Shown here in pieces: positions 9,690 through 53,152 of a stretch of DNA of 64,000 nucleotides; positions within the stretch are counted from its first letter, which is position 1, and every line of letters starts with the position of its first letter. The translations under genes were made by a program, and so were the position numbers. The notes under the pieces were generated by a model. It was not told the DNA's origin. It saw only the letters and a list, made by a program, of their open reading frames with translations, and searched no databases. The stretch is from the NCBI GenBank assembly GCA_026393115.1, contig JAPLAU010000026.1, forward strand, positions 62,001 through 126,000. The letters run 5' to 3'. The DNA is from Actinomycetota bacterium (lineage in GTDB: Bacteria; Actinomycetota; Actinomycetes; S36-B12; CAIYMF01).

Positions 9690-10331
9690 TTAAACGACTG
9701 AGCGGAATCCTGAGATGCGCTCGCCGTACCAAGGGTCGTCGACGCTGGAGATGATGACGCCCGAACCGTAGTTGGCCGCGTGAATCATCTTGCCGTGACC
9801 GAGGTAGAAGGCCGCGTGGTGTGCTCCGTTGCCGAAGAAGAACACCAGGTCACCGGGCTTGGCCTTAGCGCGCGACACCGGCTTGAGAGTCGCGAACTGA
9901 TCCCATGACGTGCGCTCGATGGTCTTACCGGCAGTACGCCACACGTAACTGGTGAAACCCGAGCAGTCGAATCGAGTGGGTCCAGAAGATCCGGCCGAAT
10001 ACGACATGCCCTTGCGGCTCAGCGCGATGGAGACCGCCTTGGTGCGCATTGCCGCGGTGCGGACAACGAGCGCCTTGCGTGCCTGCGCTGCCTTTGCCTT
10101 GACGGTGGCCGCGGCGACCTGAGTCTGTGCGACCGCTGCTTCACGGTGGATTTCTGCGACGGCGATGCGGTCGGCAGTGAAACTGGCAGCACTGTCGACG
10201 GCAACGATTGCTGCCGGGTTGGCGGGGGGAAGATTCGCGGAATGGGCAGCCGGAACGCCGATGATGCCGGCGACCAGAGCCGTTCCGATAATCGTGGTAG
10301 CAAGCGTGCGCTTGCTGCGGGTGGACAGCAC
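9690..10331 (-). CDS. Secreted NlpC/P60 peptidoglycan hydrolase
   Basis: 213 residues: signal peptide (about 1-32, ending VPAAHSA), an Ala/Lys-rich helical spacer (about 45-105), then an NlpC/P60 cysteine peptidase domain with Cys123 (FDCSGFTSYV), His172 (HHAAFYLG) and third residue His184 (KMIHAANYG). It would cut peptide stems of peptidoglycan during growth or resuscitation. The GTG start lies 5 bases after AGGAGG. The 5' leader is a c-di-AMP riboswitch, as often seen for actinobacterial cell-wall hydrolases, so its synthesis should fall when c-di-AMP is high. Confidence 0.92.
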   Translation of the reverse strand: MLSTRSKRTLATTIIGTALVAGIIGVPAAHSANLPPANPAAIVAVDSAASFTADRIAVAEIHREAAVAQTQVAAATVKAKAAQARKALVVRTAAMRTKAVSIALSRKGMSYSAGSSGPTRFDCSGFTSYVWRTAGKTIERTSWDQFATLKPVSRAKAKPGDLVFFFGNGAHHAAFYLGHGKMIHAANYGSGVIISSVDDPWYGERISGFRSVV

Positions 10332-10332
10332 A

Positions 10333-10495
10333 GGTTCCTCCTGGAACCGCCTACCGGGTTAGCTGACGGGCTCGGGCTCAGAAGGTGCTGCCCTACTGAG
10401 GGTCACTCGCATCTCTGCGAGCCCTCCCTCGGATTCGCCCCGGGACCTTTCGTACTGTGGGTCCCCGGTCCTGCATGAGGTTCGGCGGTGCGCTC
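10333..10495 (-). promoter_or_regulatory. ydaO/yuaA-type c-di-AMP riboswitch
   Basis: On the minus strand the leader contains the class hallmarks in order: CGCCGAACC, a GGACCGGGGACCC segment, GGGGCGAATCC, AGGGCAGCACCTTC, GAGCCCGAGCCCGTCAGC and TAACCCGGTAGGCGG. The 3' end folds into GGTTCC-AGGA-GGAACC (10348-10333), which contains the AGGAGG ribosome site of the NlpC/P60 gene. A translational expression platform is therefore visible. Boundaries are approximate. Confidence 0.9.
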
Positions 10496-10663
10496 GCACA
10501 CGTGAGGATCACGTGTAGGTAACGGGCACGATTCTGAGGTTAGGACGAATGGGTGACATTGGCCCAACACCGTCTAGGCGTGATGTGACGTGGATCACGA
10601 GCGTTACGAGGGGACTTACGTCCTGAACAGGGGTCTCATTCCCGAATTACGGAAATCTGTTGC

Positions 10664-10701: not shown

Positions 10702-10790
10702 CTGTGGACTACCTGTGGATAACCAATTGCCTCTGTCTACGGCGGGCGCCTGATCCCCTTCCCTCTCCCTTCCCTTCCCTTTCCCGGCTC

Positions 10791-10850
10791 TTGGTCACCT
10801 ATTGACCAAAGAAACCCGGGACGGTCTTCGATTGACCAAAAATGCCCAGG
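10791..10850 (-). repeat. Dispersed ~50-bp intergenic element, copy A
   Basis: Minus strand reads GGGCATTTTTGGTCA, then GACCGTCCCGGGT, then TTCTTTGGTCAA. It contains the palindrome TTGGTCA-CCTAT-TGACCAA (10791-10809). A clear relative lies at 37034-37087. Confidence 0.55.
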
Positions 10851-10926
10851 GCGGGGGCAGGGCGGGGGCAGGGCGGGGGCGGGGGACGAGCGGGGGTAGG
10901 GGACGGGGGATCGGAAGGACGGGAGC

Positions 10927-19122: not shown

Positions 19123-21783
19123 GTGAGTCGGTTCAGTGGTGTGCGTCGGTTCGTGGCGGGTGCGGCAGCAGTAACATTGCTGGCTGCGGGCGTGGTGGCG
19201 GCGGGAGTTACGCCAGTATCGGCGGCTGCCGTCAGTTCCCAGACGTTCTCTACACCTGGTGACTTCACCTTTACTGTCCCCGACGGAGTGACAGCTGTGC
19301 GAATCAGTGCGGTAGGGGCTGGGGGAGCGACGCACGTGGAGCGTCTGAATTGCGTCGACTACGGCTTTTTCGGCGGCGTTATCTGCTCCAGTACTCAGTA
19401 CTACTACGGCGGTCGGGGTCGTTCGATCACGACGTACCAGCAAGTGCAGGGTCAGGACCAATTGAGCGTGCATGTCGCGGCTGTTTCTGAATCTGCCACA
19501 ACCGTTGCCGGTGGTCGCATCAGTGTGAGTGCCCCGAATGGTGGTAACGTCCATGATCAGCAGATTTGCACCTACTTCGGCTGCACTTCTTTTGGATGGG
19601 TGGGGGGCTCCGACGCGGGTGGGGCAACGGTCTCGACCTCGGCGCCCGGGTATCCCGCGGATGTGTCCGCGTTGGTTAGCAATAGGGACTCTTCTGGCTC
19701 GCTCGTGATTGAGTGGGCAAAGTCAATGATTGTGACCTCAGCCTCCGATTCCGGGGCTGGATCGCTGCGGGAGGCGATCACAGCCGCCAACGACACGGGA
19801 AATGTCGACGCTACCCTCCCGGACGTGATCACCTTCGACCCGTCGGTGACTGACCCGATCGTGCTGGCCAGCGACTTGCCGGCGATTACGGGTGCGGTGA
19901 ATATTGTGGGGCCGGGGGCACGAGTGCTGACGGTCAGCGGCGACGACAAGTTTCGACCGTTCTCGTTCGCGGCGGGGTCGACAGTGCGGCTGAGCGGACT
20001 GGGGATCGCGCATGGCCATGGGGGCGAGCAATTCGCCCCTTCTGGTGGCAACGTTCAGGTGGCGCAGGGGGCGACTGCGTTCATTGACGGTGTGTCGCTA
20101 ACGGGTGGGTCTGCTCATGACGGGGGCGGTGTCACGACGAGTGGAGACCTGACGCTGACGAACTCGGTGGTGTCCGGCAACAGCGCTAGTCAGTGGGGCG
20201 GTGGCGTGATGGTGGTGAAGTACCCGTCAGCCCCGGCGCCGGCCGTGACAATCGTGAACTCAACGATTACTGGTAATTCCGGCCGGTACAGCGGGGGCGG
20301 TGTGATGACCCAAGGCGGCGGTGTGGTCACGGTGACAGCGTCAACAATTGCGGGCAACTCTGGGAACGACGGTTATGGCGGCGGAGTATTGACGTACAAC
20401 GGAGGCAGTCTGTCGCTGCGCTCGACTGTGCTGTCGGCCAATTATGCGGCGACTGGCGGTACGTGTGGCACGGTGTATGGCGGATCGGTGACCGACTCCG
20501 GCTACAACGTGTCGTCGGACTCAGCGAACAGCGGGGTTTACAACTCGTGCGGCCTGTCGACGGATAACCATTCGGTGTTCGACGCTGATGGTTCGCCGGT
20601 GGATGTCAATCTCGGGCCGTTGCAAAACAATGGTGGGCCGACTGACACGTTGATGCCGTTGGGTGATTCGCCGGTATTGGACGTGATCCCGCCGGAATTC
20701 TGTACCGATCTGGGCGGGTCTCCTGCGGCGATCACGACCGATCAGCGGGGACAGTCGCGTCCGCAGGGCGCGGGTTGTGAGATTGGCGCGGTGGAGGTGC
20801 CGGCGATCACGGTGACCCCCGACGCCAAGTCCGTGGCCTACAACGACTCGGCGCCTGAGTACACGTTCACGCTGTCGCCGCTGACCCCGTCGACGAACTA
20901 CACCGCGCCCACGTGCACGAGTGGCTACAACGTGGGTGCGGCGAAGGGCTCGACGTTCACGATCTCCTGCGCGGGCGGGAAGGCCGACGGGTACTCATTC
21001 GTGCAGACCGCAACTGCGGACCTTGACGTGACGAAGGCGACCCCAACGGTAGCGATCAACAACATACCCACATCCCCCGTAGTGGGTGACTCGTTCACGC
21101 CGACGTTGACGACGAGTAGTGATGGTGTCACGTCGGTAACGAGTTCGGACACGAACGTGTGCACGGTGGACGCGGCCACCGGACTGGTGTCGTTCATTGG
21201 TGCTGGCACGTGCCCGCTGAAAGCACATGTGGCGGTATCGGCGAACTGGCTGAAGGGGGATGGGCAGGTGCAGCAGGTGAGTGTTGCGAAGGCCAGCACG
21301 TCGGTTTCGATTTCGAATATGCCGGGTTCGGCAGTGGTGGGCGACTCGTTCACGCCGACGTTGACGACGACCAGTGATGGTACGAAGTCGGTGACGAGTT
21401 CGGACACGAACGTGTGCACGGTGAACGTTGGCACGGGCGCGGTGTCGTTCATTGCTGCTGGCTCGTGCACGCTGGTGGCGCACGTGGCGTCGTCGGCGAA
21501 CTGGTTGGCCGCTGATGGTTCGGCGCAACAGGTGAGCGTCGCGAAGGCCAGCACCTCGGTTTCGATTTCGAACCTGCCAGCTTCGGCAGTGGTGAATGCG
21601 TCGTTCACGCCGACGTTCACGACGAGTAGTGATGGTACGAAGTCGGTGACGAGTTCGACCACGAGCGTGTGCACGGTGAACGCAGGCACGGGCGCGGTGT
21701 CGTTCATTGCTGCTGGCACGTGCACGCTGGTGGCGCACGTGGCGTCGTCGACGATCTGGGCGGCCGCCGTTGGGCAGGCGTAG
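19123..21783 (+). CDS. Large secreted beta-helix/repeat protein, ends at an in-frame TAG
   Basis: 886 residues up to TAG at 21781. Signal peptide about 1-36 (SRFSGVRRF, hydrophobic core, PVSAAA). A Gly-rich domain with FTVPDGVTAVRISAVGAGG is followed by SDSGAGSLREAITAANDTG, the usual entry to a right-handed beta-helix (about 210-540, with repeated NSTITGNS, ASTIAGNS, RSTVLSANY turns and a QNNGGPTDT cap). Next comes an MBG-like domain (about 565-640), then three 85-residue Ig-like repeats. The third repeat breaks at GQA-stop-QVSV where its siblings read QQVSV, so a CAG-to-TAG change has cut off the C-terminal fibronectin-like part, still intact in the same frame. Likely a cell-surface adhesin or polysaccharide-binding protein. 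GTG follows GAGGAG. Confidence 0.85.
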   Translation: MSRFSGVRRFVAGAAAVTLLAAGVVAAGVTPVSAAAVSSQTFSTPGDFTFTVPDGVTAVRISAVGAGGATHVERLNCVDYGFFGGVICSSTQYYYGGRGRSITTYQQVQGQDQLSVHVAAVSESATTVAGGRISVSAPNGGNVHDQQICTYFGCTSFGWVGGSDAGGATVSTSAPGYPADVSALVSNRDSSGSLVIEWAKSMIVTSASDSGAGSLREAITAANDTGNVDATLPDVITFDPSVTDPIVLASDLPAITGAVNIVGPGARVLTVSGDDKFRPFSFAAGSTVRLSGLGIAHGHGGEQFAPSGGNVQVAQGATAFIDGVSLTGGSAHDGGGVTTSGDLTLTNSVVSGNSASQWGGGVMVVKYPSAPAPAVTIVNSTITGNSGRYSGGGVMTQGGGVVTVTASTIAGNSGNDGYGGGVLTYNGGSLSLRSTVLSANYAATGGTCGTVYGGSVTDSGYNVSSDSANSGVYNSCGLSTDNHSVFDADGSPVDVNLGPLQNNGGPTDTLMPLGDSPVLDVIPPEFCTDLGGSPAAITTDQRGQSRPQGAGCEIGAVEVPAITVTPDAKSVAYNDSAPEYTFTLSPLTPSTNYTAPTCTSGYNVGAAKGSTFTISCAGGKADGYSFVQTATADLDVTKATPTVAINNIPTSPVVGDSFTPTLTTSSDGVTSVTSSDTNVCTVDAATGLVSFIGAGTCPLKAHVAVSANWLKGDGQVQQVSVAKASTSVSISNMPGSAVVGDSFTPTLTTTSDGTKSVTSSDTNVCTVNVGTGAVSFIAAGSCTLVAHVASSANWLAADGSAQQVSVAKASTSVSISNLPASAVVNASFTPTFTTSSDGTKSVTSSTTSVCTVNAGTGAVSFIAAGTCTLVAHVASSTIWAAAVGQA

Positions 21784-21789
21784 CAGGTG
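21031..21789 (+). repeat. Three 255-bp coding repeats
   Basis: Units begin at 21031, 21286 and 21541 with ACGAAGGC/GCGAAGGCC and encode KA(S/T)xSVSISN...DTNVCTV...GTCxLxAHVA. Units 2 and 3 are closest, pointing to recent duplication. The nonsense codon falls at the end of unit 3. Confidence 0.85.
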
Positions 21790-22404
21790 AGCGTTTCTGC
21801 GGCGCCGGTGGTGGTGACAGCTCCCTCGGTGGCGCGGTCGGTGGCTGGTTCGCCGCGTAATAAGTCGGTGGTGGTGTCGTGGCTGGCTCCGTCTTCGACT
21901 GGTGGTGCCGCGATCAAGGAGTACAAGGTGACGGCGTCGCCGAAGGTGGGTTCGGTGTTCAAGTCGTGTTCGTGGATTCTGACGACGCCGGCGAAACCAC
22001 TTACCTGTGAGGTCAAGAACTTGACCAATGGAGTGTCGTACACGTTCACGGTGAGGGCGACGAACCGAGGTAGCAAGTCGAGCACGACGGCGAAGTCGGT
22101 TGCGGTGATTGCGGGTGCACCGACGGCTCCTCGTTCGTTGGTGGTTTCGACCTCGGTCGCTCACAAAGCGACGGTGTGGTGGACTGCTCCGCAGTACACC
22201 AATTCGGGTGCCGTGACCGGTTACCAAGTGCGCTGGTGCACGGTGGGTGGCTCGTGTTCGGTGTGGTCGACGCTGCCGGCCAGTCCGCGGTCGGCGTCGG
22301 TGACCGGCCGAGTCACGGGTACGAAGTATCGGGTGGAGATCCAGGCCAAGAACGGATCGGGTTACGGTCCGGTGGCCGCTAAGACGTTCACGCAGGCAAA
22401 GTAG
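21787..22404 (+). CDS. Severed C-terminal part of the surface protein (two FN3-like domains)
   Basis: 205 residues in the same frame as the preceding gene, separated only by TAG-CAG. It contains two fibronectin type III-like domains (PSVARSVAGSPRNKSVVVSW...; APTAPRSLVVSTSVAHKATVWW...) ending SGYGPVAAKTFTQAK. These match the two C-terminal domains of the neighbouring 953-residue protein. GTG at 21787 gives a formal start, but there is no ribosome site and no signal peptide. It is therefore either dead sequence or made only by readthrough. Confidence 0.7.
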   Translation: MSVSAAPVVVTAPSVARSVAGSPRNKSVVVSWLAPSSTGGAAIKEYKVTASPKVGSVFKSCSWILTTPAKPLTCEVKNLTNGVSYTFTVRATNRGSKSSTTAKSVAVIAGAPTAPRSLVVSTSVAHKATVWWTAPQYTNSGAVTGYQVRWCTVGGSCSVWSTLPASPRSASVTGRVTGTKYRVEIQAKNGSGYGPVAAKTFTQAK

Positions 22405-22505: not shown

Positions 22506-25367
22506 GTGAGGGCTTCGAGTAAGGGCGGGGTTGTGGGTCGGTTCAGTGGAGTGAAGCGGATGGCGGCAAGTGCCGCGACGCTCGCTTTGCTGATTGGCGG
22601 AATCGCAGTCACAGGTGCCACGCCGGTCTCGGCAGCTGTTCCCAGCGAGGTCGCGATCTCAGTCGTTTCGGATTCGCCCTCGATCACGTACGGCGACGCC
22701 GGTCCGGCGACAATCGGCTATACGACTGTCCCCGTCACGACTGCCGATGACTGGACGACTGAACCGACATGTGCGGTGTACGCATTGGTTGATACGGGCT
22801 TCACCGCCGCGCTGAGTGCCCCTTACGCGATCGGCTTGTATGTCACGCACTGTTCTGGCGGTGTCGCGAGTGCCGTCAACTTGCTTTCGTATGTTGAGGG
22901 CACGCTGACCGTCAACAAAGAGACGCTGTACGTCGTGCCCGACGGCAAGTCGGTGACCTACGGAGACGCGGCACCGACTTACACATTCACTTTCCATTCG
23001 ACGTCCGTCGACGGCGGTGTCGTGACGCCGACGGTCGACAGTTCTCCCTCGTGTGGCAGCGTCTACACCTCGTCGGCTTCGGCGTCTCTGTCTCCGGTCA
23101 CCATCGAGTGCTCGGGCGGCTCTGACTCGATCTACTCGCTTGATACAAGTGCCACCGGCCAACTGACGATCGCTAAGGCTGCGTCGTCAACGGTGGTCAC
23201 GTGCACTGCGGGGCCGTTTACCTACACCGGCTTGTCGCAGAGGCCCTGTTCTGCGGGTGTGACCGGGGCGGGCGGGTTGTCGCAGTCGAAGACTCCTACG
23301 TACGCGAACAACACCAATGCGGGTAGCTCGGCGTCGGCGTCGTACAACTACGTCGGCGATGCGAATCACAACTCATCCTCGGACAGCACGACCTTCACTA
23401 TCGGTAAGGCGACGTCGTCAACGGTGGTGTCGTGCACACCTTCGGTGACCTATACCGGTATAGCGCAGACGCCGTGTTCGGTGAGTGTGTGGGGAGTCGG
23501 AGGTTTGTCGTCGACGCCCTCACCGACCTACGCGAACAACACCAATGCCGGTGATCCGGCGTCGGCGTCGTATAGCTACGTCGGCGATGCGAATCACAAC
23601 TCATCGTCGGACAGTGCGAACTTCACTATCGGTAAGGCGTCGTCGTCAACAGTGGTGTCGTGTAGCGCTGGGCCCTTTACCTATACGGGCTCAGCGCAGA
23701 CGCCGTGTTCGGTGGATGTGTCGGGAGTGGGAGGTTTATCGTCAACGCCCTCACCGACATATCTGAGCAACACCAATGCCGGTAGCTCGGCGTCGGCGTC
23801 GTACAGCTTCGGTGGCGATGCGAATCACAACTCATCGTCGGATAGTGCGACCTTCACTATCTTGAAGGCTGCGTCGTCGACGGTGGTGACGTGCACACCT
23901 TCGGTGACCTATACGGGTATAGCGCAGGAACCGTGCTCGGTGGGTGTGGAGGGGGCAGCTCTGTCGCGGTCCGACCTGCCTGCCGACTATGTGAACAACA
24001 CCAATGCCGGCGATCCGGCGTCGGCAACGAATAACTTCGGTGGCGATGCGAATCACAACTCATCGTCGGACAGTGCGACCTTCACAATCCGTAAGGCGAC
24101 GTCGTCGACAGTGGTGTCGTGTCTGCCTGTGACGTACACGAGTTTTGCGGTGGCTCCGTGTTCGGCGAGTGTGACGGGAGCGGGCATTCTTCCGGCGCTT
24201 ACTTTCTCGCCGACGTCGTATTCCAACAACATCAATGCGGGTAGCTCGGCGTCAGTGTCGTACAATTTCGTTGGCGATTCGAATCACGACTCATCGTCGG
24301 ACAGCACGACCTTCACCATCGCAAAGGCAACGTCGCAGACGGTGGTTTCGTGCGGCCGACTCGAGTTCACGTACACGAGTTTTGCGGTGACGCCGTGCAT
24401 CGCAACTGTCGGTGGTGCCGGTTGGCCCCTACCCGTCTATGTCACCCCGACCTACGCGGACAATACGTATGTTGGCACCAACGTTGCGTCGGCCACATAC
24501 GAGTACGTCGGGGATGGCAACCACACGCCGTCGTCGTACATCAAGCACTTCAGCATTCTCAAGGCGCCGTCGACGACGGTAGTCACCTGCCCCGCGTCGG
24601 TGCCATACACGAGTTACGCGGTGACGCCGTGTTCGGTGAGTGTGACGGGAGTTGGCGGCCTCGCGCTGACCCCAACCCTGAACCCGACGGAGAACTACGC
24701 GCACAATATTGCGGTAGGCCTGAACACTGCGTCGGCGAGGTACACGTTCGACGGCGATGAAAACCACAGCGGCTCAACGACAAGTAAGTTGTTCTCGATC
24801 ACGTCGGCGCCATCGGTAGCGCGATCAGTCACTGGGTCGCCGCGTATTCGGGCTGTTCTGGTCTCGTGGGCGGCACCATCGAGTCCAGGCGGTGCGACCA
24901 TCACTGGTTATGTCGCAACCGTCGTGGGTTCGACTAAGAAATGCACCGCGACTGGATCACAGCGATCGTGCACGGTGTCGGGATTGACCAGTGGCACGTC
25001 GTACAAGTTCACTGTGAAGGCGACCAACTCGGTGGTCAAGTCGAGCACCTCGCCTGCTTCCGGTGCGGTGATTGCTGGCGCGCCGACCGACCCGCGTTCG
25101 TTGGTAGCTTCATTCCCAGCGAAGAAGTGGGCAAAGGTGACGTGGGTGAAACCCTCGTACAGCAACGCGGGCGCAGTCACCGGGTATCGCGTGCGTTGGT
25201 GCAAGGTCGGTAGCACCTGCACTGCGTGGTCGAGGCAGCCATCGTCGCCGTTGGTGTCGGCGATCGGCGGCCGCCAGAAGAACGCGCAGTACCGCGTGGA
25301 ACTGCAGGCGAAGAACTCATCGGGCTACGGTCCGACTGCGAGCAAGACCTTCGCACAGACGCTCTAG
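22506..25367 (+). CDS. Large secreted Ig-like repeat protein with two FN3 domains
   Basis: 953 residues. Signal peptide (RFSGVKRM, hydrophobic core, TPVSAAV) closely matches that of the upstream paralogue. MBG-like segments lie at about 45-220, then seven Ig-like repeats of about 77 residues (ASSTVV(T/S)C..TYT...PCS...NNTNAG..SASYN(Y/F)xGDANHNSSSDS), then two FN3-like domains (about 765-953) ending SGYGPTASKTFAQTL. There is no LPXTG or membrane anchor, so it is released or held non-covalently. GTG 22506 has GGAG 9 bases upstream; GTG 22533 aligns with the paralogue's start and is an alternative. It probably acts in adhesion or aggregation. Confidence 0.85.
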   Translation: MRASSKGGVVGRFSGVKRMAASAATLALLIGGIAVTGATPVSAAVPSEVAISVVSDSPSITYGDAGPATIGYTTVPVTTADDWTTEPTCAVYALVDTGFTAALSAPYAIGLYVTHCSGGVASAVNLLSYVEGTLTVNKETLYVVPDGKSVTYGDAAPTYTFTFHSTSVDGGVVTPTVDSSPSCGSVYTSSASASLSPVTIECSGGSDSIYSLDTSATGQLTIAKAASSTVVTCTAGPFTYTGLSQRPCSAGVTGAGGLSQSKTPTYANNTNAGSSASASYNYVGDANHNSSSDSTTFTIGKATSSTVVSCTPSVTYTGIAQTPCSVSVWGVGGLSSTPSPTYANNTNAGDPASASYSYVGDANHNSSSDSANFTIGKASSSTVVSCSAGPFTYTGSAQTPCSVDVSGVGGLSSTPSPTYLSNTNAGSSASASYSFGGDANHNSSSDSATFTILKAASSTVVTCTPSVTYTGIAQEPCSVGVEGAALSRSDLPADYVNNTNAGDPASATNNFGGDANHNSSSDSATFTIRKATSSTVVSCLPVTYTSFAVAPCSASVTGAGILPALTFSPTSYSNNINAGSSASVSYNFVGDSNHDSSSDSTTFTIAKATSQTVVSCGRLEFTYTSFAVTPCIATVGGAGWPLPVYVTPTYADNTYVGTNVASATYEYVGDGNHTPSSYIKHFSILKAPSTTVVTCPASVPYTSYAVTPCSVSVTGVGGLALTPTLNPTENYAHNIAVGLNTASARYTFDGDENHSGSTTSKLFSITSAPSVARSVTGSPRIRAVLVSWAAPSSPGGATITGYVATVVGSTKKCTATGSQRSCTVSGLTSGTSYKFTVKATNSVVKSSTSPASGAVIAGAPTDPRSLVASFPAKKWAKVTWVKPSYSNAGAVTGYRVRWCKVGSTCTAWSRQPSSPLVSAIGGRQKNAQYRVELQAKNSSGYGPTASKTFAQTL
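23175..24800 (+). repeat. Seven coding repeats of 228-237 bp
   Basis: Repeat units start at 23175, 23406, 23634, 23865, 24093, 24324 and 24561, each with AAGGC(T/G). Lengths of 231 and 228 alternate, then 237. Units 1-4 are most alike, while 6 and 7 have diverged. Two sub-types alternate (CTAGPFTYTG versus CTPSVTYTG), suggesting duplication of a two-unit block. Confidence 0.9.
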
Positions 25368-29127: not shown

Positions 29128-31196
29128 TGGCGATGACTTCTCCAGTGACCGAGCGACCAATTCGCACGCTGCTCATCGCCAATCGCGGCGAAATTGCAGT
29201 GCGTATCGCCGAGGTGTGTCGTGAGCTCGGCATTCGAAGTGTGGCCATCTACTCCGAGCCCGATCGCGAGATGCCGCACGTGCGCGCTGCCGATGTGGCG
29301 ATTCCGATTGGTGGGCGAACACCCACTGAGTCGTACCTCGATGCAGCGAAAGTGCTGGCGGCCGCGGTGCGTTCGGGTGCAGACGCGGTGCACCCTGGCT
29401 ACGGCTTCTTGTCGGAAAACCCTGACTTCGCGCAGGCTGTGAGCGAGGCGGGTTTGGTGTGGGTCGGACCTACTCCTGAGTCGATGCGCGCGATGGCACT
29501 GAAAGTGCAGGCACGTCGAATCGCTGAGTCGGCGGGTGTTCCCATCGTTCCGGGCGCTGAACTCGACGGTCACGTGAGCGATAGCGCGCTGTTGGCGGCG
29601 GGTGAGAGCGTCGGATTCCCGTTGCTGGTGAAGGCATCCGCTGGTGGTGGAGGCCGCGGAATGCGCATCGTGTCGACCGCAGGCGAACTCGTTGAGGCAG
29701 TTGAATCGGCTCAACGCGAGGCGGGGTCTGCGTTCGGTGATTCCACGGTGTTCCTCGAGCGCTATCTCACCGGTGCGCGTCACATTGAGGTGCAGGTATT
29801 CGGCGACCAACAGGGCAACGTGCTGCACGTCGGCGAGCGCGAGTGTTCGGTGCAGCGACGTCACCAGAAAGTGATCGAAGAGTCTCCCTCGCCGGGTGTC
29901 ACCGAAGCGGTGCGCGAACACATGCTTGAGGCAGCAGTCTCGTTGGCGAAGTCGATTGGGTATGTCGGCGCTGGCACGGTCGAGTTCGTGGTGATTGGCG
30001 AGGGTGGAAGCCAGGACTTCTACTTCCTTGAAATGAACACGCGACTTCAGGTCGAGCACCCCGTTACTGAACTCACCTATGACGTGCCGTTGATTGAGTG
30101 GCAGTTGCGAGTAGCGGCGGGCGAAGCGTTGCTGGTTGAGCAGGCCGAACTGCAGCCCGACGGGTATTCGCTCGAAGCGCGGCTCTATGCCGAAGACCCG
30201 TCACAGGGGCACGCACCAGGGTCAGGTCGCGTCACGCGCATGGAGATTCCGGAAGTACGCGTCGACGCGGGTGTTGAGTCGGGCAGTGAGATCAGTACCT
30301 ACTACGACCCGATGATTGCGAAGGTCATTTGGTCGGCACCCACGCGCGATGCGGCGGCGTTGGGGTTGGCGCGCGCATTGCGGGCGGCGGTGCTGCACGG
30401 TCCGGTGACCAACCGCGACATGGTGGTGGCAGTGCTCGAAAGCGACGACTTCCTCGCCGGTCACACGACGACCGCGTTCCTTGACGAACACCCCGAGTTG
30501 CTCGATCCGCAGGTTCCTGCAGCGCGTCGTGCATTGCACCTCTGCGCAGTAGTGATTGCCGCTGCGCACGAAGCACGTGAGTTAGTGGCTGACGAACCCG
30601 CTGCATCGACAGCGTTTGCGCCGTCGGGGTGGCGCAACGTGCGCGCAGTACCGGAGGCGCGAACCTTCGCAGGGGGCGACGAGCAGGTGACCGTGGCCTA
30701 CGAGCGCCTGCGCGATGGGGTTTGGCGCGTGGGGACGACGTCGTCACCAGTGGAGTTGATTGGTGCGGCCGAGATCGAGTGGCTCGAGGTTCCGGTACGC
30801 GCGTCAGCCGCGCGTGATGCTCAAGGTGATGTGGTGGTTGATCTCGAATCGGGTGAGCGCATCTTCGCTCGCGTCATCCGTTCTGATGACGGTCTGATCA
30901 CCGTGCACGACGGGTTATGGAATAGCCGCTTGCATGATGTGTCGCGCTTTGCAGGCGAGGCGGCTGATGACGTCGCTGATGGGTCGGCGACTCCGGTGCC
31001 CGGCACGATCACCGTGGTGGCCGTGGCCGTGGGCGATCACGTGACTGCAGGGCAGACGCTCGTCGTGCTTGAGGCGATGAAGATGGAGCACCGCATTGTC
31101 GCGGCCATCGACGGTGTCGTCACGGCAGTGCGAGTCGAGGTCGGCCAGGCCGTTGATGCGCATGAAGTCGTCGTGACGGTTGAGGGGGAGACATGA
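29124..31196 (+). CDS. Biotin carboxylase/biotin carrier subunit of acyl-CoA carboxylase
   Basis: 690 residues. Biotin carboxylase domain (about 10-455): [16 protein letters not shown]-grasp loop [14 protein letters not shown], and active-site [15 protein letters not shown] less conserved linker domain follows (about 470-610). The C-terminal biotinyl domain carries EAMKMEH with the biotin Lys near 653. It carboxylates biotin from bicarbonate and ATP for the preceding beta subunit, forming an alpha6beta6-type enzyme. GTG 29124 overlaps the upstream stop; ATG 29127 is possible. Confidence 0.93.
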
Positions 31197-33094
31197 CCGA
31201 AGGTGTGCGCGTTCAGCGTGCCGTGCGCATTGCCAACTGCTCGGGATTCTTTGGCGATCGCCTTGCTGCGGCACGCGAGATGATCGATGGCGGACCGATC
31301 GATGTACTCACTGGCGACTGGCTCGCTGAACTGACCATGCTCATTCTTGCGCGTCAACGTATGAAGCACGGCGAAGGTTCGGGCTACGCGCGCACCTTCC
31401 TGACCCAGATGGCCGACGTGCTTGGCGATTGCCTCGAACGCGGAATTCGCGTGGTGTCGAACGCGGGCGGGCTTGATCCGGCGGGGTGTGCGGCGGCGCT
31501 GCGCGTGCAGGCCGATGAGGCGGGATTCGGTCACGTGCGCATCGCGTACGTCGACGGCGATGACCTGATGCCGCGCATGGCGGAGCTCAGCGATGCGGGC
31601 GAAACGTGGGTCAACCTTGACACTGGAGTCGCGCTGGCCGACGCTGGTATTCATCCGCTCACCGCGAATGCGTACATCGGTGGACGCGCTATTGCTCTGG
31701 CACTCGCCGAGGGTGCAGATGTCGTGATCACCGGACGCTGCACTGATGCCGCGCTCGTTGTCGGGCCGGCGGCCTGGTGGCATGGCTGGTCGTTCGATTG
31801 CGACGACCAGGCCGATCTCGATCGACTCGCAGGTGCCGTGGTGGCGGGGCACATCATCGAATGTGGTGCTCAGGCCACCGGTGGCAACTACTCGTTCTTC
31901 TCCGAGGTTCCGGGCATTGAGCACGTGGGCTTTCCCATTGCCGAGGTGGAGGCCGACGGTTCCAGTGTGATCACCAAGCACGACGGCACGGGCGGCCTGG
32001 TGTCGGTCGGAACGGTGACTGCGCAGTTGTTGTACGAGATCGGTGGACCGCAGTACGCGAACCCCGATGTCGTTGCCAGGTTCGACTCGATCGCATTGGA
32101 AGAGGTCGGCCCCGATCGCGTGCGAGTGAGTGGGGTTGTGGGTGAGCCGGCGCCAACGCGACTCAAGGTGGCACTCAACTACCTCGGTGGTTTCCGCAAT
32201 TCCATGACGCTTGTGCTCACCGGTCTCGACGTCGACGCCAAGGCCGATGTGGCGTTGCGTCAGGTGACGGGGCTCGGACTAGAGCAGTGCCTCGCGGCAA
32301 CGTCGCCGCGTGAGTTGGCCGCGCAGAGTTCACTCGGTGTGCAAGAACTGCTGGTGCGCTTCAACAAAGTGGGGTCACCCGATCCGACCTCGGTGCGCGA
32401 CGCGCAGTCGCTGCTGCAGATATCGGTCAAGGACCTCGACCCCACGCGCGCAGGCCGGGTGTTCACCAGCGGGGTGGTTGAGGCGGCACTGGGGTCGTAC
32501 CCCGGTATGTTCCCGACGACACCGCCGGGGCAGGCCACGCCGTTCGGAATCTATTGGCCCACCACCGTCGATGCTGCGGCCGTCACTCCGCGCATCACCC
32601 ACGACCCCGTCCCCACCCCCACCGCCACCCCCACCCCCACCCCCTCTCCCCATCGGGGGCACCCAAGCGCGCACCTAGCGCGCTCAGACGCCCCAACGTC
32701 GACCGGAAATCGGACGCCTGCCACCGCGCCCGCGACCTCACCCACGGTTGATGTTGCACTCGGTGCGCTCGTCGGTGCTCGCTCGGGTGACAAGGGCGGC
32801 AATGCCAACATCGGAGTGTGGGTTCCGCTGAACCGCCCCAATGACGCCGTCGACTGGCTCGCGTCATGGCTCACACCCGACCGTGTTCGTGAACTGCTAC
32901 CCGAGACGGCTGAGTGTGAGATCGAATGCCACCCACTTGCGAATCTGCGCGCAGTCAACGTCGTCATTCACGCAATTCTCGGCCGAGGGGTTGCCGATTC
33001 CGATTCACTCGATCCGCAAGCCAAAGGGCTCGGTGAGCAGTTGCGTGCGCGCATCGTTTCGATACCGAGTGCACTGCTCGTGACGCCTTCATGA
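31193..33094 (+). CDS. AtuA family protein (acyclic terpene utilisation) with repeat-derived linker
   Basis: 633 residues. N-terminal DUF1446/AtuA domain (about 8-455), with IANCSGFFGDRLAAA, ITGRCTDAALVVGP and ALNYLGGFRNS. The C-terminal AtuA-like domain (about 515-625) has ALVGARSGDKGGNANIGVW. Known AtuA proteins are needed for citronellol/geraniol breakdown with geranyl-CoA carboxylase, but their biochemistry is unsettled. The two domains are joined by a Pro/Thr-rich stretch (about 468-508) that is partly encoded by a 43-bp dispersed repeat and a CCCCCAC tract, unlike the surrounding coding sequence. Overlaps both neighbours by 4 bases. Confidence 0.88.
   Translation: MTEGVRVQRAVRIANCSGFFGDRLAAAREMIDGGPIDVLTGDWLAELTMLILARQRMKHGEGSGYARTFLTQMADVLGDCLERGIRVVSNAGGLDPAGCAAALRVQADEAGFGHVRIAYVDGDDLMPRMAELSDAGETWVNLDTGVALADAGIHPLTANAYIGGRAIALALAEGADVVITGRCTDAALVVGPAAWWHGWSFDCDDQADLDRLAGAVVAGHIIECGAQATGGNYSFFSEVPGIEHVGFPIAEVEADGSSVITKHDGTGGLVSVGTVTAQLLYEIGGPQYANPDVVARFDSIALEEVGPDRVRVSGVVGEPAPTRLKVALNYLGGFRNSMTLVLTGLDVDAKADVALRQVTGLGLEQCLAATSPRELAAQSSLGVQELLVRFNKVGSPDPTSVRDAQSLLQISVKDLDPTRAGRVFTSGVVEAALGSYPGMFPTTPPGQATPFGIYWPTTVDAAAVTPRITHDPVPTPTATPTPTPSPHRGHPSAHLARSDAPTSTGNRTPATAPATSPTVDVALGALVGARSGDKGGNANIGVWVPLNRPNDAVDWLASWLTPDRVRELLPETAECEIECHPLANLRAVNVVIHAILGRGVADSDSLDPQAKGLGEQLRARIVSIPSALLVTPS
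32652..32694 (+). repeat. 43-bp dispersed element, copy 1 (inside a gene)
   Basis: Starts ATCGGGGGCACCC, continues CACCTAGCGCGC, ends ACGCCCC. It lies in frame inside the AtuA linker and is preceded by a pyrimidine-rich C/A tract (32607-32650). Three further copies lie at 47947-48218. Confidence 0.9.
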
Positions 33095-47757: not shown

Positions 47758-47845
47758 GGAGGGCTCGCATAGTGGCCTAGTGCGGCGGTCTTGAAAACCG
47801 CTGTTGGGTGATCCCCAACCGAGAGTTCGAATCTCTCGCCCTCCG
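47758..47845 (+). tRNA. tRNA-Ser (UGA)
   Basis: 88 bases. Acceptor GGAGGGC pairs with GCCCTCC. Anticodon arm GCGGT-CTTGAAA-ACCGC has anticodon TGA. The long variable arm (TGTTGGGTGATCCCCAACC region) is diagnostic of serine, and the T arm is GAGAG-TTCGAAT-CTCTC. Discriminator G, CCA not encoded. Confidence 0.96.
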
Positions 47846-47860
47846 CCCCGCGCACCCCCC

Positions 47861-47930
47861 TTTCCCGCCTTCCTTTCCCGCCTCCCTTTCCCGCCTCCCT
47901 TTCCCGCCTCCCTTTCCCGCCTCCCTTTCC
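47861..47930. repeat. 12-bp pyrimidine tandem repeat
   Basis: About six copies of TTTCCCGCCTCC directly after tRNA-Ser. Similar C/T tracts precede other repeat elements here (10757-10785; 32607-32650). Confidence 0.8.
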
Positions 47931-47946
47931 CCAACCCCCCATTCGC

Positions 47947-47989
47947 ATCGGGGGCACCCAAGCGCGCACCTAGCGCGTTTACGCGCCCC
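47947..47989 (+). repeat. 43-bp dispersed element, copy 2
   Basis: Begins ATCGGGGGCACCC, ends TTTACGCGCCCC. Identical to copy 3. Contains GCGC-ACCTA-GCGC and outer GGGG/CCCC arms. Confidence 0.9.
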
Positions 47990-48001
47990 ACCCCCTTCCG
48001 C

Positions 48002-48044
48002 ATCGGGGGCACCCAAGCGCGCACCTAGCGCGTTTACGCGCCCC
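48002..48044 (+). repeat. 43-bp dispersed element, copy 3
   Basis: Identical to copy 2 and 55 bases downstream of it in the same orientation, separated by CACCCCCTTCCGC. Confidence 0.9.
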
Positions 48045-48175
48045 ACAGTTGGCGTGGTGGGCCAGTCGAATCTGAGAAACAAGTGGACACGGTGGTTTCC
48101 TAGCCTCAAAGAGCAGCAAACAGCGAAGATCGCAGAACCTGAGGTGCTGCACCGGCGCGCGGCGCACTGCGCGTT

Positions 48176-48218
48176 GGGGCGTCTGGGCGCGCTAGGTGCG
48201 CGCTTGGGTGCCCCCGAT
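48176..48218 (-). repeat. 43-bp dispersed element, copy 4 (inverted)
   Basis: Read on the minus strand it matches copy 1 (ATCGGGGGCACCC...AGACGCCCC) except for one base. Together with copies 2 and 3 it makes a long-range inverted pair. Confidence 0.9.
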
Positions 48219-48276
48219 GGCAAAAGGAGTCGGGCGTCGAGGGAGGGGGGTAGAGGAGGGGTTCGAGGAGGAGGGG

Positions 48277-50310
48277 TTAGAGGAGGCGGGCGTCCAGAGC
48301 GAGGGCTCCGACAGGCCTCACCAGCAGAGGGTTCACTTCGACGTCGGTCAATTCCGGATGCGCCGCTGCCACTTCGGTAATGGTCGAGATCACGGCCGCG
48401 GCAGCCGCCACATCAACCGGGGGTCGCCCACGAGCACCGGCCAGCAGTGCCGCGCCGCGCAGTGAACGCAGCAGGCGCTCGGCGTGCGTGGCCGATACGG
48501 GAGCCAGCGCGGTAGCCACGTCGTGAATGACCTCGGTGTACACGCCGCCGAGCCCGACCATCGCCACCGGACCAAATCGCAGATCACGCCGTACCCCAAC
48601 AATGATCTCAACTCCATCGGTGAGGTCGGCCATCTCGTCAATCGAACATGCGGGCGGCGCAAGTCGCGCCATGACGTCGTCGTAGGCGGCAAGAAGTTCG
48701 TCAGCGTTCGCAATTGCAAGAATCACGCCACCGGAGTCTGACTTGTGCAGCAATCCGAGGGATTTCAACACAAGTGGAAAGGACAGTTCGCGTGCGGCGA
48801 CAAGTACCTCGTCACGCGACCGCACAGTTCGTGCTGTCGGAAATGGCACGCCAGCGGCGGCGAGTAGTACGCGCGCACTCGCGTAATCGGTGTCGGTGAC
48901 GGGAGGTGCTGGCGCCGGAATCACGGGAAGTGGGTCGAGAGCGCGTGGGGGGAGTGAGGCAGCGAGAGAACGTACTGCTCCCTCGATCGTGCGGTAGACG
49001 GCAATTCCGCCACGTCGCAGTTCGGTTGCCACTGCCGATTGCGGAAACATCGAGTGCACGGTCACTGCGCGGTCGAGACGACGCGCGATCTCGCCGAGCC
49101 GACGTGCGGTTGCGAGTTCCCGTTCATCAATTGCCTCGCTGTAGGCACCGTACCCACCGAAGTAGCCCGTCACCACCAGCGCATCGACTTCACCTGACGC
49201 CAACACTGCTTCGGCCACACTCGCGAAACAGGTGATGTCTTGCTCGCCGCCACCTGCAACGTCGATGGGATTCACCGTCGACGCCGAAGTTGGAAGGAAG
49301 GCCGCGGCGGCCGCGGCCACCTGCGCTGAAAGGTGCGGCACGGTGAGCCCCGCATGCTCAGCAACGTCGGCGGCAATTGATGCGTGGCCGCCACCGTCGG
49401 TGAGCACTGCCAGTCGTGGTCCTTGGGGGCGAGCCACTGCGCACAGTTGTGCCAGCACGTCGGCCATCTCAGTAGGAGTATGCACTCGTACGATGCCGGC
49501 TTCATGACACGCGGCGTCCACAACGTCAGACGACGAGACCATCGATCCGGTGTGCGACTGGGCCTGCCGTGCCGACGCTTCGCCAGCACCCACGGTCAGC
49601 AACACGACGGGCTTCCCTGCGTCGGTTGCCTGACGCGCCGCGTTGACAAATCGACGCCCATCGCGGAAGTCCTCGGCGTACACAGCGATGACGTCGGTGC
49701 CATCGTGACCGATACAGCCCAGTACTAAGTCAGCAGCCTCGAGATGTGCTTGATTACCCAGGGATGCAAAACGCGAGAACCCCATGCCGTGCTCGACCAG
49801 ATGAGCGGCTAGTTCCAACGACAAGTTGCCGCTCTGCGAAACGAACGCAACACGTCCGCTAGGAAGTGGGTTCGACGAAAGTTCGAGAACTGACCCCGCG
49901 TCGAAGACGCCGAGGCAGTTGGGTCCGAGAAGTACTGCGCCGGCATCGCGTACCCGTCGCGCCAGCGCTTCTTCGCGGCGTCGTCCGTCTGGACCGGATT
50001 CACCCAGACCAGTACTAATTCCGACGATAGCTGTGGCACCCATCGCGAGCGCATCGTCGACGGCCTGATCGATGGCGTCGGCCGGCACGGCGATGGCGGC
50101 CAAACCGACGGGTCCGGGAACATCGCGCACCGATCGGTAGGCAGGCTGGCCCAGGACCGTGTCAGCGCGTGCATTCACGAGGTAGACCGGCCGCGATCCC
50201 TTCAGTGCACCGACGGACAGCCAGTTGCCCCACTTCGCCGGATTGTCGCTGGCCCCGACGACGACGACCGACACTGGGTCGAAGAGAACGGTGAGATCGT
50301 GGTCGCTCAC
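48277..50310 (-). CDS. ADP-forming acetate/acyl-CoA ligase (fused subunits)
   Basis: 677 residues. CoA-binding domain (about 5-130, VVVVGASDNPAKWGN), succinyl-CoA-synthetase-like flavodoxin domains (about 140-440) with LLGPNCLGVFD and the probable phospho-His SHTGSMV, then an ATP-grasp domain (about 465-677, FPLVLKSLGLLHKSDSGGV). It interconverts acyl-CoA + ADP + Pi with acid + CoA + ATP. In this operon, probably the energy-conserving last step of amino-acid or keto-acid breakdown. The start overlaps the amino-acid dehydrogenase stop. Confidence 0.9.
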   Translation of the reverse strand: MSDHDLTVLFDPVSVVVVGASDNPAKWGNWLSVGALKGSRPVYLVNARADTVLGQPAYRSVRDVPGPVGLAAIAVPADAIDQAVDDALAMGATAIVGISTGLGESGPDGRRREEALARRVRDAGAVLLGPNCLGVFDAGSVLELSSNPLPSGRVAFVSQSGNLSLELAAHLVEHGMGFSRFASLGNQAHLEAADLVLGCIGHDGTDVIAVYAEDFRDGRRFVNAARQATDAGKPVVLLTVGAGEASARQAQSHTGSMVSSSDVVDAACHEAGIVRVHTPTEMADVLAQLCAVARPQGPRLAVLTDGGGHASIAADVAEHAGLTVPHLSAQVAAAAAAFLPTSASTVNPIDVAGGGEQDITCFASVAEAVLASGEVDALVVTGYFGGYGAYSEAIDERELATARRLGEIARRLDRAVTVHSMFPQSAVATELRRGGIAVYRTIEGAVRSLAASLPPRALDPLPVIPAPAPPVTDTDYASARVLLAAAGVPFPTARTVRSRDEVLVAARELSFPLVLKSLGLLHKSDSGGVILAIANADELLAAYDDVMARLAPPACSIDEMADLTDGVEIIVGVRRDLRFGPVAMVGLGGVYTEVIHDVATALAPVSATHAERLLRSLRGAALLAGARGRPPVDVAAAAAVISTITEVAAAHPELTDVEVNPLLVRPVGALALDARLL

Positions 50311-51503
50311 TCGACCAACTCCACGGCGTTGATGGTGCGTGGGTAACGCAAATCCAACTCGGCTCGCTTGGAAAGCGACAAACGCGTTGCCGCTTCGCGT
50401 GGGGAAATTCCATCGCGGTCGGCACTGGCCAGAATGGTGCGCACTGTCGGACGCATTCGCGACGAGAGCATCGTGAAGGCGGACTGCGCAGTGGGCTCAA
50501 TATCGCCGAAGCACACCCACCACCACCACTGATTCGTTCCGGTGTTCGCAACGAAATCGGGAACGACGGTGATGCCGCGGGCACGAAGGGCCTCTTCGGC
50601 ATCGAGTGACGTCGACACATTCGCGGCTTCAACGATGATCGTCGCGTTGATATTCGCCACGTCGTCGACATCGATGACGTACGACATCGCTGCAGGCACG
50701 AGAATCTCCGCATCACAACTTAGCCACTGCGCACTGGGAAGTTGCAGGTCGTCGGCGTGCAACTGGGCGCGATCGACCACTCCGTGCGAATCGCGCGTCA
50801 GCAGCAGCGTCTCGACTTCAAGGCCGTTCGGGTTGTAGATGACGCCCTCGCGATCAGCAATTCCGACAATGCGTACTCCGGCGAGAGCGAGATAGCGCGC
50901 AGTTGCTCCGCCCATTGAACCGAATCCCTGCACCACGGCGCGTGATTCTGACGGCTTCATTCCACGGTGATCGAGTGCGGCAAGAGCAGCCTCGGCTACA
51001 CCGAAGCCACCGACGAGTTCGCCAAGGCCCACGCCGTCGACGCGCACTGCAAAGGCCGCATCCTGACGCGCCAACGCTGCCTCAACGCCGCCAGGAGCGA
51101 GGCGGTACCCCGCTTCAGCAGAAGAACGGATTCCTTCTTCAGCAAAGACTTCGTCGATCAGATCCTGACGGACTCCGAAATCCTCGCCGGTTGCGAAACA
51201 CAGGTCGATCACGGGCTTCATCGCGCGAGCCCAACGGCGCAACACGTCTCGAGCACGCGGATCGTATGGATCGCAGTCGATTCCACCCTTGCCGCCGCCG
51301 AAGGGGACGTAGAGGTCACCCTCTTGCCACAGCACGGGATCCTTCAACGTCATGCCACGCGCAAGATCACGCACTTCCTCGATCGTCACGCCTTGGCGCA
51401 TGCGTAGACCGCCGCCGGCAACGCCACGACTCAACCGATCAACCACGATGTACCCGTTGATGCCGGTTTCATCGTCGGTCCAGGTGACTTCTAGATAGCT
51501 CAC
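50307..51503 (-). CDS. Glu/Leu/Phe/Val dehydrogenase family protein
   Basis: 398 residues. The N-terminal catalytic domain has GGLRMRQGVTIEEVRDLARGMT and the reactive Lys in PFGGGKGGIDCDP; the C-terminal Rossmann domain has VQGFGSMGGATARYLA. It oxidatively deaminates an amino acid to its 2-oxoacid with NAD(P). Hydrophobic substrate preference (Leu/Val/Phe) or glutamate cannot be decided by eye. It abuts the TPP-enzyme gene with a one-base overlap, so deamination and decarboxylation are likely successive. Confidence 0.9.
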   Translation of the reverse strand: MSYLEVTWTDDETGINGYIVVDRLSRGVAGGGLRMRQGVTIEEVRDLARGMTLKDPVLWQEGDLYVPFGGGKGGIDCDPYDPRARDVLRRWARAMKPVIDLCFATGEDFGVRQDLIDEVFAEEGIRSSAEAGYRLAPGGVEAALARQDAAFAVRVDGVGLGELVGGFGVAEAALAALDHRGMKPSESRAVVQGFGSMGGATARYLALAGVRIVGIADREGVIYNPNGLEVETLLLTRDSHGVVDRAQLHADDLQLPSAQWLSCDAEILVPAAMSYVIDVDDVANINATIIVEAANVSTSLDAEEALRARGITVVPDFVANTGTNQWWWWVCFGDIEPTAQSAFTMLSSRMRPTVRTILASADRDGISPREAATRLSLSKRAELDLRYPRTINAVELVE

Positions 51504-53152
51504 TACTTCTCCTCGCGGGGTGGTTCTGGAACAACCACAACGGTTGGTCCGGAACGGGTGCGGGCTGCCGTGAGCTCGGTCGGCAGTTGATCGGGTGTGC
51601 TGATGCGCACGGCGTACGCACCGAGTGACTGGGCAAGCGCAACGAGGTCGCGCGGTGGTGCGTCGACGGCAATCGGTTGCTCGCCGCGATCGAGCATTTC
51701 ATTGCGTATCTCGCCGTATCCACTGTTGTCGAACACCACGAATGCGATGGGAAGTTGCTCGGCAGCTGCTGTCGCAAGTTCAGTAACGGTGAACAGCAAA
51801 CCGCCATCGCCGCTGATTCCGACGACCTGTCGATCAGGTGCGGCAAGTGCCGAGCCAATCGCCACCGGCACGGTGAAACCTAGAGTGCCGAATCCCGTGG
51901 GGAAGTGCAGTGAGGCGGGGTGCCGAACAACAAGTTGGGGAATGACTCCGTAGTACACACACATGGCATTGTCAGTCGCCAGAATCGCGTCGGTATCGAG
52001 TGCACTCGCCAGTGCTTCAACCCACGGAGCCCAGATCGCTCCCGCACCCGCAACCTCAACGCGAATCTGGGTGAGCAAGTCGTCGACCCACTGTGGGCTG
52101 CCTGATCGATCGTCAGTGACGAGAGGAACAAGCGCGTCGTGTAGACCACGCAGCGAACGCTCGGAATCTCCGGAGATGAAAACGTCTGAGTTCACGTTGA
52201 CTCCAGCCATCCGCTCATCGATGTCGATGCGGATGACCGTGCCTGTGGGTGACAGTGCACCAAGGTAGAGGTCGGACTGGCCGAGCTCGGAGCCAACGAT
52301 GAGCAGCACGTCGGCCGCTTCCACTGCATTCACGACCGCTCGCGTGCCCAAACGTGAGCCCAGCGAGAGTTCGTGATCGCCGGATAGAGCGCCGGTACCG
52401 TTGATAGTGGTGGCAACGGGTGCGGCGAGGAGTTCGGCAAGCTCGCGCAACGAATGGGTGGCACCCACTGCCCCGCCTCCGGCAACAATCATCACGCGCT
52501 CGGCGTTGGCGAGTATGCCCGCTGCGTGATCGATCGCTGTCGCGTCGAGTGGGGGCAGTACTGGTTCGGGCGCAACAGTGATCGCCGCATCGCCGCGCTC
52601 TTCGAGCAGGTCGAGCGGAATCTCGATATGCACTGGCCGTGGCCGACCGTGGGTCATCACGGTGAAGGCTTCGGCGACGGCGTCAGCGATCTGTTGATGT
52701 GTTGCGGGGCGCAGGCTGCACTCAACGATGAGTGCCATCGCCCCACCCTGATCCTTCGCTTCGTGCAGGTACCCGGAACCGGTGGCGGTGGGCGCCAGAT
52801 GACGAGGCATTGCGGGCGATATCAGCAGTACCGGTGATGAATCGGAATACGCCTGTGCCAGTGCCGTGGCAGCGTTGTAGACAGCCGGACCTCCCGTCAC
52901 GACGGCAACGCCCGGACGTCGGCTCGTACGCGCGTACCCGTCCGCGGCGTAGCCTGCACCCTGCTCGTGTGTGGTGGCGACAACATGCACGTGATAGCGC
53001 CGCATCGCATCAAAGATGCTCAGGTTATGGGTGCCGGGGATCCCGAACACGACATCGACCCCGTGTGCGCGAAGCGATGCCACGACAACCTCGCCACCGG
53101 TGACACCCACAAGGTGGCGAGACGTAGCGTCGGAAACTTCAGGAGTGCTCAC
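51503..53152 (-). CDS. TPP-dependent 2-oxoacid decarboxylase-like enzyme
   Basis: 549 residues with three domains of the acetolactate synthase/decarboxylase family. The N-terminal PYR domain has GIPGTHNLSIFD and the TPP-activating Glu in THEQGAGYAADGYAR. The central domain lies at about 205-335, and the C-terminal PP domain has the GDGG-N TPP motif (GISGDGGLLFTV...FDNSGYGEIRNEM). The THNL and GYGEIR features recall 5-guanidino-2-oxopentanoate decarboxylase (AruI) rather than true acetolactate synthase. It is flanked by an amino-acid dehydrogenase and an acyl-CoA dehydrogenase, and no small ALS subunit is present. Confidence 0.85.
   Translation of the reverse strand: MSTPEVSDATSRHLVGVTGGEVVVASLRAHGVDVVFGIPGTHNLSIFDAMRRYHVHVVATTHEQGAGYAADGYARTSRRPGVAVVTGGPAVYNAATALAQAYSDSSPVLLISPAMPRHLAPTATGSGYLHEAKDQGGAMALIVECSLRPATHQQIADAVAEAFTVMTHGRPRPVHIEIPLDLLEERGDAAITVAPEPVLPPLDATAIDHAAGILANAERVMIVAGGGAVGATHSLRELAELLAAPVATTINGTGALSGDHELSLGSRLGTRAVVNAVEAADVLLIVGSELGQSDLYLGALSPTGTVIRIDIDERMAGVNVNSDVFISGDSERSLRGLHDALVPLVTDDRSGSPQWVDDLLTQIRVEVAGAGAIWAPWVEALASALDTDAILATDNAMCVYYGVIPQLVVRHPASLHFPTGFGTLGFTVPVAIGSALAAPDRQVVGISGDGGLLFTVTELATAAAEQLPIAFVVFDNSGYGEIRNEMLDRGEQPIAVDAPPRDLVALAQSLGAYAVRISTPDQLPTELTAARTRSGPTVVVVPEPPREEK

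Follow-up and report, generated by a model that had tools for sequence, protein, structure and literature searches.

Repeat unit and copies in the window

Short repeats tend to be interpreted as leftovers of mobile DNA. The window, a stretch of 64,000 nucleotides from the draft genome of an actinobacterium (G000; 3.51 Mb, 34 contigs), contains four copies of a short hairpin-forming repeat, which raises the question whether these are such remnants or are held in place for another reason. All four copies were found at the predicted positions and on the predicted strands with an identical 31-base core (Table 1), and four exact copies of this length within 64 kb are far above chance. The unit, originally given as 43 bp, was corrected to 44 nt with CCCCA at its end. 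It consists of ATCGGGGGCACCCAAGCGCGCACCTAGCGCG (positions 1-31), a variable stretch (32-39, referred to as the arm) and CCCCA (40-44). The variable last 12 bases were confirmed as CTCAGACGCCCC in copy 1, TTTACGCGCCCC in copies 2 and 3 and CCCAGACGCCCC in copy 4 (minus strand). Likewise, a pyrimidine-rich tract is present on the left side of each window copy. Copies 2 and 3 result from a single 55-bp tandem duplication, which is missing from the sister species and leaves three independent sites in the window. One of these, copy 1, is intragenic and not intergenic: it lies in the linker that joins the AtuA domain to the AtuA_ferredoxin domain. Its orthologue on contig C60 of the same-genus relative (G001) differs by one synonymous change, in the arm.

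Table 1. Repeat copies and neighbouring features in the window, and copies split by insertion elsewhere in the genome.
Feature	Position	Strand	Remarks
Copy 1	32652..32695	+	44 nt in AtuA-family ORF 31193-33094, about codons 487-501
Copy 2	47947..47990	+	tandem duplicate (55-bp unit) of copy 3; missing in sister species
Copy 3	48002..48045	+	orthologue is the copy on G001 contig C135
Copy 4	48175..48218	-	inverted partner; orthologue is the copy on G001 contig C135
CoA-binding/ATP-grasp gene	48277-50310	-	copy 4 lies downstream
tRNA-Ser(TGA)	47758..47847	+	copies 2 and 3 at the 3' end of the gene
C-rich tract, CCCCAC repeats	32600..32651	+	left of copy 1; encodes Pro-Thr-rich linker
C-rich 13-bp tandem tract	47851..47946	+	between tRNA-Ser and copy 2
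C-rich tract	48219..48276	-	between stop codon of gene 48277-50310 and copy 4
Copies split by IS481-family element (L018, L199, L027, L201)	G000 C19:46707 / C8:70397 and C31:75418 / C24:45461

Distribution and sequence constraint

A covariance model found about 47 copies in G000 and about 49 in G001, the two draft assemblies by which the genus is sampled. The 18-base head gave 33 exact and 14 near matches in G000, compared with 0 for the reversed control, and the 28-base core with up to 2 mismatches occurred in 40 copies in G000, in 45 copies in G001 and in none of 58 other relatives. The core is thus not confined to the four places in the window, and tandem duplication, which accounts for one of the four window copies, does not explain the family. 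Outside the genus, the covariance model gave no convincing hit among 146 further genomes of the order; matches in six of the order's genomes were single, weak and coding-looking and were taken as chance. An exact scan of public bacterial and archaeal genomes yielded the G001 relative, the uncultured MAG LJ_bin-5001, as its sole match, in a collection from which records close to the genome of the window may have been withheld. The element was not found in IMG/VR (exact scan) or in phages and plasmids (BLAST) at the sensitivity used, Rfam gave no match at gathering and a single sub-threshold match taken as chance, and a literature search gave no relevant account of such a family from freshwater or other actinobacteria. 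Best high-GC BLAST neighbours of the surrounding genes belong to Rhodococcus, Tsukamurella, Streptomyces and Nocardia, which points to an actinobacterial host. A subfamily with the head GGGGGTCCCC in place of GGGGGCACCC was observed on contigs C30 of G000 and C329 of G001 (L177, L178, L170, L171) and is likewise orthologous in both species.

By flank matching, about 43 copies pair one to one at orthologous loci of G000 and G001, a number that includes one copy decayed in G000, one pair with single-flank support and two copies that are intact in G001 and split by an IS481-family element in G000. In the 38 cleanest pairs, substitutions between the species affect 21 of 1178 core sites (1.8%), 37 of 304 arm sites (12.2%) and 1 of 190 sites of the closing CCCCA, with 12-13% divergence in the downstream flanks. 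The core is therefore kept about seven times more strictly than arm and surroundings. Some G001 copies were found by an exact 21-base pattern, a possible bias at positions 1-21, and model-found copies were added to the set of pairs; positions 22-31, outside the search pattern, show 5 changes in 380 sites (p = 2e-9 versus the arm). Similarly, the indel rate of the downstream flanks predicts about 43 indels for the 44-nt elements in 39 pairs, and about one was seen. Between paralogues within one genome, cores differ by 5% and arms by 48%. This comparison suggests that multiplication of the copies probably preceded the species split by a long time and that the core stayed held throughout.

Judged from these substitution patterns, there is strong sequence-specific constraint at fixed positions (1-31 and 40-44) around an unconstrained 8-nt spacer of fixed length. 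The family is real, genome-wide, old, vertically inherited and fixed in place. Since the copies stayed put and the core was kept so strictly, the repeat probably has some job.

Next to elements at several loci, identity between the species changes abruptly: over a distance of about 0-300 nt it climbs from about 85-90% to 98-100%, as seen at window positions 47847-51600 and at loci L005, L012 and L031. Several G001 contigs stop in or beside an element. These jumps and contig ends would reflect either recombination ends or chimeric assembly.

Hairpin and gene context

The proposed hairpin arms correspond to a real palindrome with folding z values of about -3 to -5. Both strands of the element are foldable, and the most continuous hairpin is formed by the strand complementary to the one first described, where G-U pairs make the helix continuous (88% paired cells versus 75%). 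Two-sided covariation is absent because one side of the hairpin is invariant. Selection on arm pairing was initially suggested by 84% pairing on the complementary strand in comparison to 50% for shuffled arms; this idea was dropped, as neutral drift from a paired ancestor explains the changes between orthologues. There, 18 of 31 arm changes preserve pairing, which is not above the transition bias of the flanks (p = 0.2). Arm pairing being no better than neutral weakens the case that the whole hairpin matters. The features that are demonstrably conserved are, in sequence, one side of the hairpin together with its inner stem and loop as well as the closing CCCC, and in addition the spacing.

Gene calls came from a simple finder based on coding potential. 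By these calls, 33 copies are sense to their left gene or to their host ORF, compared with 11 of the 44 that are not (p = 0.001). Converging genes surround 18 of 40 intergenic copies versus 2 of 16 intergenic gaps in the window (p = 0.03), and inverted pairs recur at the ends of converging genes. A few copies are found between divergent genes and two are placed 17 nt ahead of a start codon; with 11 of 44 lacking a same-strand gene on the left, and with three copies read through within proteins, a pure 3'-end role leaves some copies unexplained. The neighbouring genes are functionally mixed and encode a sigma-70 factor, a BRCT-ended (ligase-like) protein, ATP synthase epsilon, HflX, a cobalamin adenosyltransferase, an acyl-CoA synthetase, a sugar transferase and tRNA-Ser. 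Four copies (L010, L019, L020, L176) are followed by a second motif, GAAAACTGCGTCTATGCGTGCTTA, at a fixed distance of 31-32 nt downstream, and other copies are trailed by a different motif like GAAATCTGCCGTGTTTGCTGTTTC.

Three copies are read in-frame as HRGHPSAHLARSDAP, at the C-terminus of HflX, in the AtuA linker and in the linker of an OleBC-like hydrolase/AMP-ligase, so that a single palindrome yields an identical peptide in three proteins unrelated to each other. All three use one reading frame and the changes between the species are synonymous. The arm CTCAGACG occurs in these three and in no other of the 44 G000 copies (p = 8e-5), which points towards either protein-level constraint or recent common descent. 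The same OleBC-like fusion in relatives from other families carries neither tract nor element; both were therefore probably gained in this lineage.

Proposed role and alternatives

We consider it about an even chance that the repeat is an old REP-like family that became fixed as a gene-end hairpin read by a putative factor, a mechanism that we infer from conservation and placement. A 44-nt hairpin element would have spread through the genome of the genus ancestor and then become fixed. Each copy would work at a gene end: just behind the stop codon it would form a hairpin, mainly in the transcript (or in the DNA), which would be read by a putative sequence-specific factor and would help to set or protect the 3' end. 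More tentatively, and with a distinctly lower probability, the copies may form a genus-wide gene-end signal in which one putative RNA- or DNA-binding factor recognizes a 36-base bipartite hairpin motif at the ends of some 45 genes, including housekeeping genes such as those of the sigma-70 factor, the DNA ligase-like BRCT-ended protein, ATP synthase epsilon and HflX. If true, such a signal would be an element class without a described relative.

Ranked next after the gene-end hairpin, and rather doubtful in our view, is a site in double-stranded DNA. The 31-nt core and CCCCA would then be a long operator for a chromosome-organising or regulatory protein, and the hairpin potential would reflect the dyad only. 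Conserved sequence, spacing and loop with a free arm are what a bipartite site would show, and the inverted pairs in converging regions and the conservation of the core inside coding copies fit as well. However, the orientation tracks the left gene in 33 of 44 copies, for which a pure DNA site has no need. For a single protein, moreover, 31 near-invariant positions make a very long site, and the hairpin-closing ends GGGG and CCCC are conserved together.

The C-rich tract raises a further alternative. It often begins directly at the left gene's stop codon, or close to it, and runs up to the element, with a median gap of 78 nt in G000. A left gene of the same strand goes with a longer tract (p = 0.005 and 0.015). 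In the 60 nt that precede sense copies, C and G make up fractions of 0.51 and 0.15, whereas 0.34 and 0.28 were obtained after control genes; among the window genes checked, C-rich tracts are not general at gene ends. In a Rho-dependent terminator module, this C-rich, G-poor stretch would be the Rho loading site, and the stable hairpin that follows would serve as pause and exonuclease block. Composition and frequent position directly after a stop codon resemble such terminators, and an untranslated tract could serve for Rho loading. In the genes of the OleBC-like and AtuA proteins, however, tract and element are translated in-frame ahead of a conserved domain, so transcription does not stop there, and these copies argue against a general role of this kind. 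At least one left gene has its own hairpin ahead of the tract, and a terminator has no need of 31 invariant bases. The element also differs from a Rho-dependent terminator by its near invariance and by being tolerated within translated genes. We regard this alternative as unlikely.

Under the gene-end hairpin reading, the tract would be a by-product of the element. The polymerase may stall at the hairpin and slip back while copying the folding strand, and tandem units would thereby grow to the edge of the hairpin, sometimes including the first 13-22 bases of the element. Slippage fits two observations: between orthologues the tract is rebuilt, with element and right flank still aligning well, and some tandem units take in those first 13-22 bases. 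The family also provides an example of a hairpin beside which tandem repeats re-form again and again. C-rich tracts also flank both sides of a GGTCACCTATTGACCAAAGAA repeat at window positions 10746-10905, where no element is present; G000 contig C17 has this repeat again at its end, within IS-like sequence.

Mobility and comparison with known systems

The repeat had been described as REP/MITE-like and mobilised in trans. The first part holds with respect to REPs: the element is a palindrome of comparable size and copy number, is dispersed, prefers gene ends and converging genes, forms inverted pairs, occasionally lies inside genes and is used as an IS target. Mobilisation in trans found no support as a current process, since a Y1/RAYT transposase is missing, the same loci are occupied in both species and the core is under selection. 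The search for Y1 transposases (Pfam PF01797) was negative in G000 and G001, with control genomes positive, and no IS110 (PF02371) was found. Nor did the check for target-site duplications yield a clean empty site in the genus or a direct repeat common to the flanks; the outgroup OleBC-like linker is too different to serve as an empty site. L023 is occupied in G000, and in G001 this site has a transporter gene in its place; the L070 and L173 sites in G000 coincide with contig ends that carry IS-like sequence and with a synteny break. An element still mobilised by a transposase encoded elsewhere in the genome would be dispersed, palindromic, genus-restricted and present in inverted pairs and within genes, as observed, and L023 could be counted in its favour. 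With positions orthologous nearly throughout, selection on the core, no Y1_Tnp match and no empty site with a target duplication, we judge it very unlikely. The insertions probably date from an ancient burst that preceded the separation of the two species, as the OleBC-like linker has tract and element only in this genus, and the mobile-element reading describes at most the origin of the family.

The repeat seems to be the target of an IS481-family element: two copies carry this element at exactly the same base (CCTAG^C), and 6 bases, CCTAGC, are duplicated there. Apparent 3'-truncated copies at two contig ends are in fact elements split by this insertion (Table 1).

REP and BIME sequences with GTAG or CGTC tags are short dispersed palindromes near 3' ends, enriched between converging genes (PMC3733652, PMC2817692), and REPs serve as IS targets (PMC1525189). 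The present element shares G-T stem pairs, inverted pairs, some intragenic copies and the role of IS target with them. It differs by ends of ATCGGGG and CCCCA without a GTAG or CGTC tag, a host genome without the RAYT expected for GTAG families, 31 near-invariant bases combined with a free arm, a one-sided C-rich tract that rebuilds itself, and retention at the same loci under strong core constraint. The host is an actinobacterium, a phylum missing from the host list of PMC3733652. Because the tag and, for GTAG families, the RAYT are missing, we name the element REP-like and not REP. Rickettsia palindromic elements are in-frame palindromic insertions in unrelated proteins (PMC3733652), which resembles the three coding loci with their one frame, a minority of the copies; compared by description only, they differ from a 44-nt element plus tract that is mostly non-coding. 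Similar to MITEs, the element is small, dispersed and without a gene of its own, but terminal inverted repeats of a known IS, a target duplication or signs of current mobility were not seen among the copies.

Gene conversion among copies, acting in place of selection, would also make cores similar in paralogues and orthologues alike, but this explanation is hardly credible, since the 8-nt arm is locus-specific and common to orthologues and conversion would have to halt at base 31 and restart at base 40 at some 40 loci.

Other features of the window

A c-di-AMP riboswitch (Rfam RF00379, 73 bits) was detected at 10333-10497 on the minus strand, upstream of the gene at 9690-10331. Large genes with long tandem repeats at 21082-21794 and 23304-24353 (255- and 231-bp units) probably encode repetitive surface proteins.
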